64,000 bases of DNA, taken from NCBI GenBank assembly GCA_035946615.1, contig DASYZB010000034.1, positions 1 to 64,000 on the forward strand. The letters run 5' to 3'. A program made the position numbers and the translations under genes. This stretch comes from Verrucomicrobiia bacterium (GTDB taxonomy: Bacteria; Verrucomicrobiota; Verrucomicrobiia; Limisphaerales; UBA8199). This document shows positions 1 to 47,353 of this stretch, piece after piece. Each line of letters starts with the position of its first letter. Positions within the stretch are counted from its first letter, which is position 1. The notes under the pieces are model-generated. The model saw nothing but the letters and a program-made list of their open reading frames with translations. It ran no database searches and was not told the DNA's origin.

Positions 1-1550
1 TCCTGGCCCAACTCGGACGCCATGAGCCGCGCCACGGCTGGGGCCATTGCGATTGCCGCCCGGGCATTCAGGAATAATGCGCGGGTGCGTCGCGCCAGCA
101 CATCGTCGAGGGTGCGGGCCATTTCCTCGCGCGCCGCCCACCCCACCTGCGCCCCGTTAATGGCCAGGGCCGCATGCAACGGTTGGGCCAGGGCGGGGTC
201 GGCTTGCATGAGGCTCCGAATCGCCGCGGCGTCCGAGCCATAAACCCCCAGCGCGTCCCGGGTGTCCGGGTGAAATCCATGAATGCGCAAATCGCGAGTA
301 GTGCATGGCCGCTCGGGCAGGCGCCCCAGGACGACCGCATGATCCACGGCGTCCTGGGCCATTTTTCGATAGGTGGTCCACTTGCCTCCCAGGATGGTGA
401 GCAGGCCGGAGCTGGAAATGGCGATGGTGTGGTCGCGCGAGAGGCTCGCCGTGTTTCTGGCCCAGCCCTCTCCCTCTCCCCTTCCCAAGGCGAGGGGGCC
501 GGGGGGAGGCGTCCTTCTCCCGCCTCCTGCGCTGACCAGTGGCCGGATGCCGGTAAAGACACTCAGGATGTCCTCGGTCCGCGGGCGTTTGGCCAGGTAA
601 TCGCTCGCCGTCTCGAGGATAAACTCGATTTCTCCCGGTTGCGGCCGCGGTTCGATGGCGATGTTGGAGATAGGAGTATCGGTGGTGCCCACCAGGGCGT
701 GGCCATGCCAGGGAATGGCAAACATCACACGCCCATCGCGGGTGTGGGGGACCATGATGGCGGTGTCACCGGGCAGAAAGGAGGAGTCGAGCACCAGGTG
801 AACGCCCTGGCTGGGGGCCAGCATGGGCTCGGCCCGCGGGTCATCGAGCCGGCGCACCCCGTCTGAGAACGGCCCGGTCGCATTGACAACGCAGCGCGCC
901 GCCACGGCGTGTTCCTGGCCGCTTTCCTGGTCGCGGAAGCGCAGGCCCTCGACCAGCCCGTCGCGGTCTTTGAGCAAGGCGAGGACGGGTGCGTAATTCA
1001 ACAGGGGCGCGCCCAGGCCGGCAGCGGTTTGGGCCAGGTTGATGAGCAGGCGCGAGTCGTCAAACTGGCCGTCGCGGTAGAGAACGCCGCCGCGCAGGCC
1101 GTCCCGGTCGAGGGTGGGGATGCGCTCGAGGACCTCGTCCGGGGAGAGCAAGCGCGAGCGGCCAAAGCCGTATTGGCCGGCCAGCATGTCGTAGATTTTG
1201 AGGCCAAGGCCGTAGAACGGGGCTTCCCACCATTGGTAATTAGGCACGACAAAGGAAAGGTCGTGGACAAGGTGCGGCGCGTTTTGGAAGAGGATGCCCC
1301 GTTCTTTGAGCGCCTCCATCACCAGCGAAAGGTTCCCCTGCTGGAGGTAGCGCACCCCGCCATGAACCAGCTTGGTCGAGCGGCTCGATGTGCCTTTGCC
1401 AAAATCGCTCTGCTCGACCAGCATGACCCGGTAACCCCGCGCCGCGGCGTCCAAGGCAATGCCCACGCCCGTGGCGCCCCCGCCGATGACCGCCAGGTCC
1501 CAGGGGGCGGTGCTGCCGATGATTTGCCTCAGGGTGTCTTGTCGATTCAT
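1..1550 (-). CDS. glpD: Aerobic glycerol-3-phosphate dehydrogenase, C-terminus beyond window
   Basis: FAD-dependent oxidation of glycerol-3-phosphate to dihydroxyacetone phosphate at the membrane, feeding electrons to quinone. The N-terminus has a dinucleotide-binding motif ([19 protein letters not shown]), then the GlpD signatures [28 protein letters not shown] and [18 protein letters not shown]. The start ATG overlaps the glpK stop as ATGA, so the two are translationally coupled. The frame is open to base 1, so the gene is partial at its 3' end. Oddity: between IRPLV and [10 protein letters not shown] there is a Gly/Pro/Arg-rich stretch of about 18 extra residues encoded by a palindromic repeat, absent from ordinary GlpD and still in frame. 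Function is firm; the effect of the insert is unknown. Confidence 0.93.
467..515. repeat. Palindromic GC-rich element inside glpD
   Basis: The plus strand shows a CCCTCTCCCCTT-type arm followed by a G-rich arm (GAGGGGGCCGGGGGGAGG). It matches the elements at 3127-3154, 13670-13696 and 43438-43464. It lies within an open reading frame and keeps glpD in frame. Confidence 0.8.
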
Positions 1551-3052
1551 GAGCCGCTCGACGCCCGTTCTTCCCAGTCGCGCGAGCGCTTGAGCGCCTC
1601 ACCCCAACGGCTCCGGCGGTGGGCCGCTTCATCCCGGCTCATTCGCGGCTCGAACACGCGCTCGGTTTGCCAGGTCTTTTGGACTTCTCCCCGGTCCTTC
1701 CAGAAGCCGGCCGCCAGGCCCGCCAGGTAAGCCGCCCCCAAAGCCGTGGTTTCCACTACCTTGGGGCGCGCGACGGGCACCCCCAGGAGGTCCGCCTGGA
1801 ATTGCATCAGCAGGTTATTGGCCGAGGCGCCGCCATCGACCCGCAGTTCATCCAGGGCGATTTGGGAATCCTCTTTCATCACATCCAGGACGTCGGCCAC
1901 TTGAAAGGCAATCCCTTCCAGAGCGGCCCGCGCTAGGTGCGCGCCGGTCGTCCCTCTGGTCAGGCCCGAGATTGACCCTCGCGCGTATTGGTCCCAATGC
2001 GGCGCCCCCAACCCGGCGAACGCTGGCACCAGGTACACCCCCCCGGAATCCGGGACGCTCGCGGCCAGGGGCTCCACCTCGCCCGATGAATGGATTAATC
2101 CCAGGCCGTCCCGCAGCCACTGGACGACCGCCCCCCCAATGAACACGCTGCCTTCCAATGCGTATTCCGTTTTGGAGCCGCATCTCCACGCAACCGTGGT
2201 CAGAAGTTGATGCCGCGACGGCGTTGGCTCGAAGCCGATGTTCATCAGCATAAAACAGCCCGTGCCATAGGTGTTTTTGGCCAGTCCATGGCTGAAGCAG
2301 TTCTGTCCGAACAGTGCCGCCTGCTGATCGCCCGCAATGCCCCCTATGGGGACCGCAGCGCCGAGCAAATCCGCCGCTGTTCGCCCGTACATCTCGCTCG
2401 AAGAACGCACTTCGGGCAACAGGCCGCGCGGCACATCGAGGGCCTTCAACAGTTCCTCGTCCCATGCGCCGGTGTGGATATTGAAGAGCATCGTGCGCGA
2501 GGCATTGCTCGCATCGGTAATGTGCTGCTCCCCTCCGGTCAGTTTCCACACCAGCCAGGTATCGACGGTCCCAAAGGCCAGCTCCCCTCGCTCCGCCCAT
2601 TGCCGCGCGCCGGGGACGTTGTCCAGCAGCCAGCGCGCCTTGCTCCCCGAAAAATAGGCGTCTATCACCAGACCGGTCTTGCTCCGGACCAGGTCCGCTG
2701 CCCCGGACCGCTTTAGTTCATCGCAAAAGCCCGCCGTGCGCCGGTCTTGCCAGACAATGGCGTTGTGAATGGGCTGGCCGGTGCGGCGCTCCCAGATAAG
2801 GGCCGTCTCGCGTTGGTTGGTAATGCCCACCGCGGCGATGTCCCCCGCGCTCAAGCCCGCCTTGGCCAGGGCCGCGCGGGCCACAGCCAGTTGCGAGTCC
2901 CAAATGGCGTTGGGGTCGTGCTCCACCCAGCCGGATTGCGGAAAGTGCTGCGGAAATTCCTTTTGCGCCGAGGCCCGTATTGCCCCCTGGTGATCGAAGA
3001 TAAGCGCCCTCGAGCTGGTTGTGCCCTGGTCCAGTGAAAGAATAAACTCCAT
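1547..3052 (-). CDS. glpK: Glycerol kinase
   Basis: ATP-dependent phosphorylation of glycerol to glycerol-3-phosphate in the cytoplasm. The 501-residue length is typical of FGGY kinases. Visible signatures are [16 protein letters not shown] at the N-terminus (phosphate-1 loop), [35 protein letters not shown], the C-terminal-domain motif [19 protein letters not shown], and [18 protein letters not shown] near the C-terminus (adenosine site). The start at 3052 gives the family's usual [12 protein letters not shown] beginning; an upstream in-frame TTG-type extension to 3136 reads through intergenic repeat DNA and is unlikely. First gene of a glpK-glpD pair with a 4-nt ATGA overlap. No glpF or regulator is visible upstream. 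Confidence 0.96.
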
Positions 3053-3115
3053 AGGTCGCTCTGCTCTTCGGGGGCTTGCTTTCGCGTCCGTTACATGAAT
3101 TACTTCTCTAATCTG

Positions 3116-3173
3116 CCCTTGCCTCTCCCTCTCCACTTCCGAAGCCGCGAGGGGCCGGGGCGCGGGGGCCCCC
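3116..3173. repeat. Degenerate copy of the palindromic GC-rich element
   Basis: A CCCTCTCCACTTCC arm followed by a GAGGGGCCGGGG arm, the same architecture as the copies at 472, 13670 and 43438. It lies between glpK and a small gene on the same strand. The rest of 3053-3237 shows no gene. Confidence 0.65.
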
Positions 3174-3237
3174 TATGTGTTGGCCTTCCCGCCGTCCCCG
3201 CGGTAACCTGTCTCAGGCCCCCATCCACATCCCGCTT

Positions 3238-13525: not shown

Positions 13526-13564
13526 GCGCCAAAATGATTTTCTCTTTTTTCCCTTCCGGTGAAG

Positions 13565-13666
13565 AAGAACCAGATCACAACATTCGACAATTCATCGGCT
13601 CGGCTCTCCCTCGAAAGGAGCCTGCATTGCGAAAAGCCCGCCGATTTTTGCAAGAACCCCGATGCT
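13565..13666. repeat. 102-bp direct repeat, copy 1
   Basis: Matches 13761-13862 almost base for base, with a handful of substitutions and an offset of 196 bp. It contains no convincing gene. The palindromic element at 13670-13696 separates the two copies. Confidence 0.8.
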
Positions 13667-13669
13667 TCT

Positions 13670-13696
13670 CCCTCTCCCCTTCCGAAGGGAAGAGGG
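13670..13696. repeat. Palindromic GC-rich element (intergenic)
   Basis: CCCTCTCCCCTTCC then GAAGGGAAGAGGG, a near-perfect palindrome with 12-13 bp arms, followed by a second G-rich arm to about 13712. Same family as 472, 3127 and 43438. Confidence 0.8.
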
Positions 13697-13760
13697 CCGG
13701 GGGAGAGGGGTCCCATTCAATGCGCGCGCCCATTGCTTACGTTTTCCAGAAATGAAGAAT

Positions 13761-13862
13761 AAGAACCGGATCCCAACATTTGACAATTCATCGGCTCGGC
13801 TCTCCCTCGAAAGCAGCCTGCATTGCGCAAAGCCCGCCGATTTTTGCAAGAACCCCGATGCT
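13761..13862. repeat. 102-bp direct repeat, copy 2
   Basis: Second copy of the 13565-13666 repeat. It ends about 40 bp from the stop codon of carB, which is on the opposite strand. Confidence 0.8.
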
Positions 13863-16999: not shown

Positions 17000-17105
17000 G
17001 GCGTTTGATTTCAAGCCGGGACACTGTATGCGGGAAAAGTGGGAGCCGCAATGCGGCAGGGAGAGCAAACTTCACACGACGCTTCGCGCGCACCGGCGCC
17101 GGGGT

Positions 17106-17208
17106 TGTAGGAGACGACGTAAGGAGTCTCTGATCAAGATTGTCAGATGGCCGCTTTTGGTTCACCCGGAAGTTGCTGATCAGAGACTCCTTACGCTCGT
17201 CTCCTACA
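17106..17208. repeat. MITE-like element with terminal inverted repeats, copy 1
   Basis: 103 bp bounded by TGTAGGAGACGACGTAAGG and its inverted complement; arms of about 31 bp are near-perfect, with one inserted base in the right arm. Copies at 35143-35243 and 47249-47333. The sequence on the right side (to about 17241) is also shared, in inverted orientation, with 47213-47248, so the mobile unit may be longer than the inverted repeat. Confidence 0.85.
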
Positions 17209-17255
17209 CTCAGGAATGGCGGCTCGATGCTTCGACTCTGCCATTTGCCCAGTGC

Positions 17256-35067: not shown

Positions 35068-35142
35068 CGCGGGTGAGAGTCGGGAGTTCGAGGAGGAACT
35101 TCAAGCCGGCATTTCAGTTCGCCGAGGCCAGTTCCAAGCCTT

Positions 35143-35243
35143 TGTAGGAGACGACGTAAGGAGTCTTAATCGAAATTGTCAATTGCCTGCTTTTGCTTGA
35201 CTGGGAAGTGGCTGATCAGAGACTCCTTACGTCGTCTCTTACA
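35143..35243. repeat. MITE-like element with terminal inverted repeats, copy 2
   Basis: 101 bp, same orientation as 17106. The inner part has diverged (left arm TCTTAATCG rather than TCTCTGATCA) while the outer TGTAGGAGACGACGTAAGG is intact. It sits between the TIM-barrel gene and prfB, about 63 nt before the prfB ATG. Confidence 0.82.
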
Positions 35244-35306
35244 TGCGGGGATTTCGCCTCCAAAGGGCACTTGCAACCGTTGTGCCCGCAACCTACATTC
35301 CGCCGG

Positions 35307-42667: not shown

Positions 42668-43966
42668 TCATTTTCTGAAGCTTTCCCCTCTGCTCTGAAC
42701 CAGCACGCGGAAGGCGCGTCCGAGATGCTCGGGGTGTGTGAGGGTTTGGAACTGGCGATTGAGCGCGCCTTTCCAGTTGCCAAACTGCATTTCCCCAATC
42801 CAAATACGCTCGGCAATGCGCGTAAGAAACTGAGTTTGTGTGCCGAAGAACTCGGTTTGTAAGCCGGCCAGGTGGCCAGCCGCCTGGAGGCCAGTGAAAT
42901 TGACATGGGCTGTGATGTCCTGCTCGCCAGGCTCGGCTAAAACATCCTCAAAGGCCCGATGGCAGCGGTACGCGCGCAGGGTGCCCCGGCCCCGTTCAGG
43001 CAACCAGAATCCCTCTTCGGTAAGTCCATAATCGAATACGAGGAGCTTGCCGGACGCCACCACGCGACTGGCCTCGCGCCACCACTGAGTGGCGGCGGGG
43101 CAAATCTCAAGAACGAATCCATCTGGCAGCACATCGAGCAGTTCGCGTGGGCATCCAGGCGCCTCAGGCATTGGACCCTTCTGCGATAGACTTGGCCCGT
43201 TCAAGCGGCTCCAGACAAACCGCTCTTTTTCCAGTGCCACCCCCCATTCAAACCATATTCGCGCGCCTGCATCCCAGCCCAGCCGATGCACCGGCAGGGC
43301 ATCGAGCAGTTCGTTGGCAAAAATGATTCGCTGCGCACCAGAGGGGGCGGCCAAACCCGGCGCAGCGGTTATTGCGGAGCCCCTAACATGGACCACATTT
43401 TTAATCTGCCGATGGGACGGACTACACATAAAGCTACCCCTCTCCCCTTCGGAAGGGGAGAGGGAAAAGCACGGTGCTCCCAGTAAATGCTCCGCCCAAA
43501 TCACTTTGGGGCTGAATTCGGAAAGGGTGTTCTGCTGCCGCCGCCGACGCCCCAATGACGGCTCGATAATCCAATACTCGAGATGCTCGAAAAGCCCCGG
43601 ACGCTCCCGGCGCATCCAAAGCAGGATGTCCCGCGCCAACTCGCCCCAATGGGCGCCAGCCTCGATGATTTGCAGAACTTGCTGGCGCGATGGTCCGGGT
43701 TGTTGTCTTTCCCCATGACACTCGGTTGAGGAACCTTGACACTCTCCAGCCTGGAACCAGCCGGCGAATTGGCAGGCTAACAATTGCCCAAACAATGGGC
43801 CGGCGCTGACGCTGGTGAAAAAATCGCCGTGGCGCCCAATGGTGTCTCTTTCCTTTTCATAATATCCATAAACGGGACAATAAAGGGCCAGTTCCATAAA
43901 CCGTGCAAAGGAGATTGCCCCTTGGTTTCGTATTTCAGCGGCAATTTTTTCAGTGACTTGGTTCAA
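42668..43966 (-). CDS. MidA-type SAM-dependent methyltransferase with an in-frame insert
   Basis: 432 residues. The family (COG1565, NDUFAF7/MidA) methylates an Arg in complex I subunits in eukaryotes. Motifs: IAAEIRNQGAISFARFMELA, CPVYGYYEKERDTIGRHGDF then FTSVSAGPLFGQ, IIEAGAHWGELARDIL, EYWIIEPSLGRR, IIFANELLDALPVHRLGWD, and LVFDYGLTEEGFW. A run of about 45 residues between HLLGA and SGAQRIIFAN is absent in typical members and is encoded partly by the palindromic repeat at 43438-43464. A shorter Gln/Ser-rich insert lies near residue 75-95. The gene is on minus strand, divergent from pilT. Confidence 0.85.
   Translation of the reverse strand: MNQVTEKIAAEIRNQGAISFARFMELALYCPVYGYYEKERDTIGRHGDFFTSVSAGPLFGQLLACQFAGWFQAGECQGSSTECHGERQQPGPSRQQVLQIIEAGAHWGELARDILLWMRRERPGLFEHLEYWIIEPSLGRRRRQQNTLSEFSPKVIWAEHLLGAPCFSLSPSEGERGSFMCSPSHRQIKNVVHVRGSAITAAPGLAAPSGAQRIIFANELLDALPVHRLGWDAGARIWFEWGVALEKERFVWSRLNGPSLSQKGPMPEAPGCPRELLDVLPDGFVLEICPAATQWWREASRVVASGKLLVFDYGLTEEGFWLPERGRGTLRAYRCHRAFEDVLAEPGEQDITAHVNFTGLQAAGHLAGLQTEFFGTQTQFLTRIAERIWIGEMQFGNWKGALNRQFQTLTHPEHLGRAFRVLVQSRGESFRK
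43438..43464. repeat. Palindromic GC-rich element inside a methyltransferase gene
   Basis: CCCTCTCCCCTTC then GGAAGGGGAGAGGG, a near-perfect 27-bp palindrome with 13-bp arms. It keeps the reading frame of the MidA-type gene open (coding CFSLSPSEGERGS on the minus strand). Confidence 0.85.
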
Positions 43967-47125: not shown

Positions 47126-47248
47126 AAAACTCCATGGTCCGTCATTGATACCAAACGCGGGGCGACATGCACAGTGGGGTGTTGACCCGGGTTGCAGAAC
47201 ATCCCGGGGCTAATGACAGAGTCGAAGCAACGAGCCGCCATTCCTGAG

Positions 47249-47333
47249 TGTAGGAGACGACGCAAGGAGTCTCTGATCAGCAACTTCCGGATGAACCAAA
47301 CGCGGCCAGAGGCTCCTTACGTCGTCTCCTACA
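47249..47333. repeat. MITE-like element, copy 3
   Basis: 85 bp, inverted relative to copy 1: it carries the TGTAGGAGACGACGCAAGG arm and a matching right arm, but lacks about 16 internal bases. The 36 bp to its left (47213-47248, ending CGCCATTCCTGAG) are shared with the right flank of copy 1. Confidence 0.82.
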
Positions 47334-47353
47334 AAGGCTTAGCCCCTGAGAAA

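Follow-up and report, generated by a model that had tools for sequence, protein, structure and literature searches.

A palindromic repeat bordered by TA, most likely an IS630-derived MITE, lies in frame in a MidA-type methyltransferase gene of a Verrucomicrobiia bacterium

How did a gene for a conserved enzyme come to carry a strong palindrome and stay open, and does the repeat family concerned tolerate such placement or favour it? These questions are raised by a MidA-type methyltransferase gene in the window, the 64,000-nucleotide stretch of DNA analysed here (Table 1). The ORF matches Pfam Methyltransf_28 (PF02636) with an E value of 2.7e-45, its closest solved relatives being 4f3n, 1zkd and NDUFAF7. 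Within it lies a complete repeat copy bounded by the ends TATTGCGGAGCCCC.../...GGTGCTCCCAGTA, and the net gain is exactly 114 nt, or 38 codons, encoding the residues LGAPCFSLSPSEGERGSFMCSPSHRQIKNVVHVRGSAI. The 27-bp palindrome had no chance matches in 100 shuffles. The original prediction of an in-frame palindrome insertion in this ORF is therefore upheld, although its borders had to be redrawn: the insert had been put at about 45 residues, a figure that took in the host residues TAAPGLAAP, and the LGA of HLLGA is already part of the insert.

The site of insertion is a loop of variable length among homologues, ahead of the conserved xIIFxNELLDAxPVHR strand. No homologue shares the insert at this place (0 of 30, from related genomes of other genera), in keeping with the insertion that had been predicted. 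In one genome (G009), MidA seemed to hold an insert at this position as well, but it proved to be a longer linker of unrelated sequence. The core of the window copy is inverted between its outer arms, an arrangement seen in two family copies (window 43413-43471 and L002 1500-1602); identity to the family consensus is 103/116 with the core inverted and 66/116 without. In its inverted form the copy has four open frames and would leave a gene open in 0.71 of insertions at TA sites within genes.

Table 1. Family members and associated features in the window, and copies lying inside genes of the same genome. Positions are those of the window.
Feature	Position	Strand	Remarks
Host gene, MidA-type SAM-dependent methyltransferase (PF02636)	42668-43966	-	ORF open through insert
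Full copy of the putative MITE, 116 bp from TA to TA	43370-43485	-	MidA coding strand is minus
TA target duplication, left copy	43370-43371	.	TA border
TA target duplication, right copy	43484-43485	.	TA border
Left outer arm, terminal inverted repeat TATTGCGGAGCCCCTAACATGGACCACA	43370-43412	+	Matches consensus left end TACTGAGGAGTCCCTAACATGAACTACA
Core, 59 nt	43413-43471	-	Inverted in place relative to family consensus
27-bp palindrome CCCTCTCCCCTTCGGAAGGGGAGAGGG	43438-43464	.	Strong hairpin
Right outer end CGGTGCTCCCAGTA	43472-43485	+	Consensus CGGTCCTCCCAGTA
Predicted insert-encoded peptide stretch within MidA			LGAPCFSLSPSEGER...
Core-only family fragment, in frame in GlpD (ORF 3-1598, minus)	460-505	.	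Without transposon ends
Divergent, nearly full-length copy immediately upstream of glpK (ORF 1547-3136, minus)	3077-3205	+	
Partial family copy, intergenic or in doubtful ORFs	13663-13703	-	
In-gene copy, MidA			Window
In-gene copy, HemW-like radical SAM protein			L004; match shows radical SAM kinship only
In-gene copy, UvrA			L077
In-gene copy, HypF			L190
In-gene copy, alpha-amylase/GDE_N protein			L189; copy truncated or diverged
In-gene copy, GDSL/TPR protein			L198; copy truncated or diverged
In-gene copy, protein without Pfam match			L199

The element belongs to a multicopy family. In the window's own genome, a 5.6 Mb draft, we found 67 palindromes with three mismatches or fewer and none of the reversed control pattern, along with 43 left and 31 right family ends. 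Copies were gathered locus by locus through searches of this genome, and a profile search of the collected loci gave approximately 90 non-redundant copies on many contigs, which puts a number on the family that had been proposed. The consensus runs TACTGAGGAGTCCCTAACATGAACTACA...palindrome...TGTAGTCCATCCCACGGTCCTCCCAGTA and is usually 116 or 128 bp long, with a 158-bp variant. Full copies, mostly 107-158 bp, are dispersed and have no transposase of their own. Their ends are imperfect inverted repeats and their borders are TA, which stands on both sides in 27 full copies of this genome and in 52 of a related genome (G008). TA is the only target choice of the family. Most copies in both genomes are intergenic, and many intergenic copies lack a length divisible by three (3n) or an open frame. 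No Rfam family matches the window.

Several copies depart from the usual form. Four (L073, L121, L176 and L189) contain roughly 30 nt of GC-rich sequence within the palindrome, the 3n length being kept in the 158-bp form, and at the start of contig C74 the palindromic core forms a tandem array (L020 1-256). Three copies, one in this genome (L103) and two in G008 (L242 and L123), occupy the TA within the stop codon of a gene, where the element end TAC TGA gives back a stop after one added tyrosine. Two other kinds of repeat were seen in the window. In a second family (17105-17250, 35136-35260 and 47207-47340), TGTAGGAGACGACGTAAGGAGTCT occurs in inverted pairs separated by about 75 bp, with GTAG close to one end; in this it resembles the GTAG-type REPs reported from the verrucomicrobium O. 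terrae. A direct repeat of 106 bp, 94% identical (13561-13666 and 13757-13862), adjoins the partial copy of the first family.

A likely source of transposase is present in the same genome, which has four IS630-type (DDE_3) genes. Contig C49 carries an intact IS630-family transposon with a 347-aa frame containing the DDE_3 domain and 28-bp terminal inverted repeats (TIRs), TACTGACCAGTCCGTAATATAGACTACA / TACTCACCAGTCCCTAGCATAGACTACA. The left end of the repeat agrees with either TIR at 22 of 28 positions; the match of the right end is weaker, at 18-19 of 28. Among 14,156 background 28-mers compared with the TIR, counts above 15 were almost never reached, the top values being 19 (once) and 16 (twice). 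The matching transposase was seen as one copy, in a draft genome. Transposases of the same subgroup in G008 and G023 have the same TIR pattern. The three other IS630 elements have unrelated TIRs and were ruled out as parents. Because the left end resembles the C49 TIRs to this extent and the borders are TA, the sequence makes it most likely that the repeat is a MITE derived from IS630 and mobilised in trans.

In order to find copies inside genes, the sequence on either side of every copy was scored for coding potential, and copies lying between coding stretches of one strand were inspected. Gene-breaking copies were sought through the same kind of score, which old, decayed pseudogenes would escape. 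In the window's own genome, seven copies that retain one transposon end or both are located within a continuous ORF, and all seven ORFs stay open. Six of these copies share one reading frame ('-2'), the sole open frame of the consensus. For random insertion at TA in 164 genes of this genome, the fraction expected to stay open is 0.11 for the consensus and 0.20 as the mean of the 27 full copies; at 0.20, seven open copies out of seven have a probability of approximately 1e-5. In-gene copies are in frame more often than random TA insertion would give, the comparison that the original prediction had called for. Alignments of HypF, UvrA and GlpD to relatives in PDB and Pfam break at the insert positions. 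The GlpD fragment adds about 21 residues that are missing in solved homologues, and is apparently the other of the two in-frame insertions of one family that had been reported for these 64 kb, an assignment to one family that also stands. Presence in several unrelated genes, with a preferred and conserved open frame, is the behaviour of protein-coding palindromic elements, and by its sequences the family appears to share it.

Kindred elements occur in two other genera of the same taxonomic family, at 125 bp in G008 and 113 or 125 bp in G010. The main net lengths in the three genera (114, 123 and 111 nt) are all 3n, as are the +12 and +42 length variants, and each of the three consensus sequences is free of stops in frame '-2'. 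G008 has 89 copies, mostly intergenic and rarely in genes. A gene for a TPR membrane protein carries one of them in frame (L255), and another lies in an apparent signal peptide (L312). A third (L295, on contig C976, with the element at 1342-1466 of the locus) breaks a gene resembling a glycoside hydrolase through a stop at element codon 28; read as an empty site, this gene is continuous.

We consider it highly probable that the repeat is an IS630-derived MITE that inserts at TA and whose in-frame copies are those left after selection. The resident IS630-family transposase would recognise the 28-bp terminal repeats and paste the MITE into TA dinucleotides, doubling the TA. Where such a copy enters a gene with suitable orientation and phase, it would add about 38 residues without truncating the protein, because 114 nt is 3n and one of the six frames is free of stops. 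Copies landing otherwise in needed genes would be removed by selection. In MidA, the element would have landed in a naturally length-variable loop right before the conserved IIFANELLDA strand, and the enlarged protein is probably still made and active. The gene-breaking copy in G008 shows that insertion itself is not frame-selective and that survival is. All seven in-gene copies being open is no evidence of targeting, because copies that broke needed genes would have vanished, and purifying selection on random TA insertions is enough to account for the in-frame pattern. It had been proposed that the family tolerates or even favours in-frame placement. Tolerance is supported by the seven open copies, but favoured placement is unsupported, because copies are mostly intergenic at a target defined by TA only and one of them breaks a gene. 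The element could instead be adapted to genes, selection having maintained both the 3n length and the open frame because in-gene copies are a profitable niche, an idea already put forward for the coding palindromes of Rickettsia. Lengths that remain 3n across three genera and in the longer variants, together with the shared open frame, would fit such a history. Three 3n lengths would arise by chance in about 1/27 of cases if independent, but their ancestry is shared; moreover, the majority of copies are intergenic, many of these have neither constraint intact, and in-gene copies are rare in G008. We therefore regard adaptation as unlikely, and a MITE lineage specialised for life in protein-coding genes, selected across genera with its parental transposase still present, is to the same degree doubtful.

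Two further readings concern what the repeat is. Its most conspicuous feature is a strong GC-rich palindrome, and fragments consisting of the core alone occur, which could point to a palindrome of REP/BIME type mobilised by a RAYT (Y1) transposase. REPs, however, are only 20-40 bp long, whereas here the palindrome CCCTCTCCCCTTCSGAAGGGGAGAGGG, which has neither a GTAG nor a CGTC tag, is the core of a longer element whose full copies are bordered by TA duplications and end in 28-bp inverted repeats that match IS630 TIRs; a REP/BIME origin is thus very improbable. The extra residues of MidA might also be a native, lineage-specific loop that resembles the repeat by convergence or chance, at a site whose length varies naturally among homologues. 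Against this, 116 bp match the family from end to end with TA at both borders, the identity to the core-inverted consensus is high, and the 30 homologues lack the insert. The end-to-end match in practice refutes a native loop.

If the repeat is an IS630-derived MITE, in-frame 'coding MITEs', best known from Rickettsia, extend to another bacterial lineage. The presence of a likely transposase in the same genome would make the origin of coding palindromes testable, the alternatives being ordinary TA insertion followed by selection and an element shaped to fit genes. For annotators and modellers the warning is that where conserved enzymes here carry extra stretches of about 40 residues, these appear to be transposon-derived.

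Reading frames of MITEs fused in frame to genes have been described for the Rickettsia RPEs, the 107-bp Correia element, ERIC and Yersinia YPAL (PMC2229807, PMC10969869). Compared by description, the Correia/NEMIS 107-bp form and the 127-bp ERIC element differ from the present family in name, size and host. Open papers were searched for such elements in this lineage, and none turned up. The RUP element of Streptococcus pneumoniae, which IS630-Spn1 mobilises at TA sites, is similar in being a 107-bp MITE with a TA target and terminal repeats common with a resident IS630 (PMC2229807). In the passages drawn on here, RUP differs in being described as intergenic and often located in IS elements, and in-frame insertions in conserved genes are not among the features reported for it (PMC2229807). 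In behaviour, the family resembles the RPEs and the Wolbachia palindromic elements, which excerpts of two reviews describe as short palindromic repeats of about 100-150 bp that lie in frame in many unrelated conserved genes, where they contribute a peptide read in a preferred frame (PMC10969869, PMC2229807). Unlike the RPEs, for which those excerpts name no parental transposase, the family described here belongs to another bacterial lineage and has TA duplications and a matching IS630. In-frame coding insertion by such elements is thus already known, and what is new is the bacterial group and the identification of a likely transposase source.
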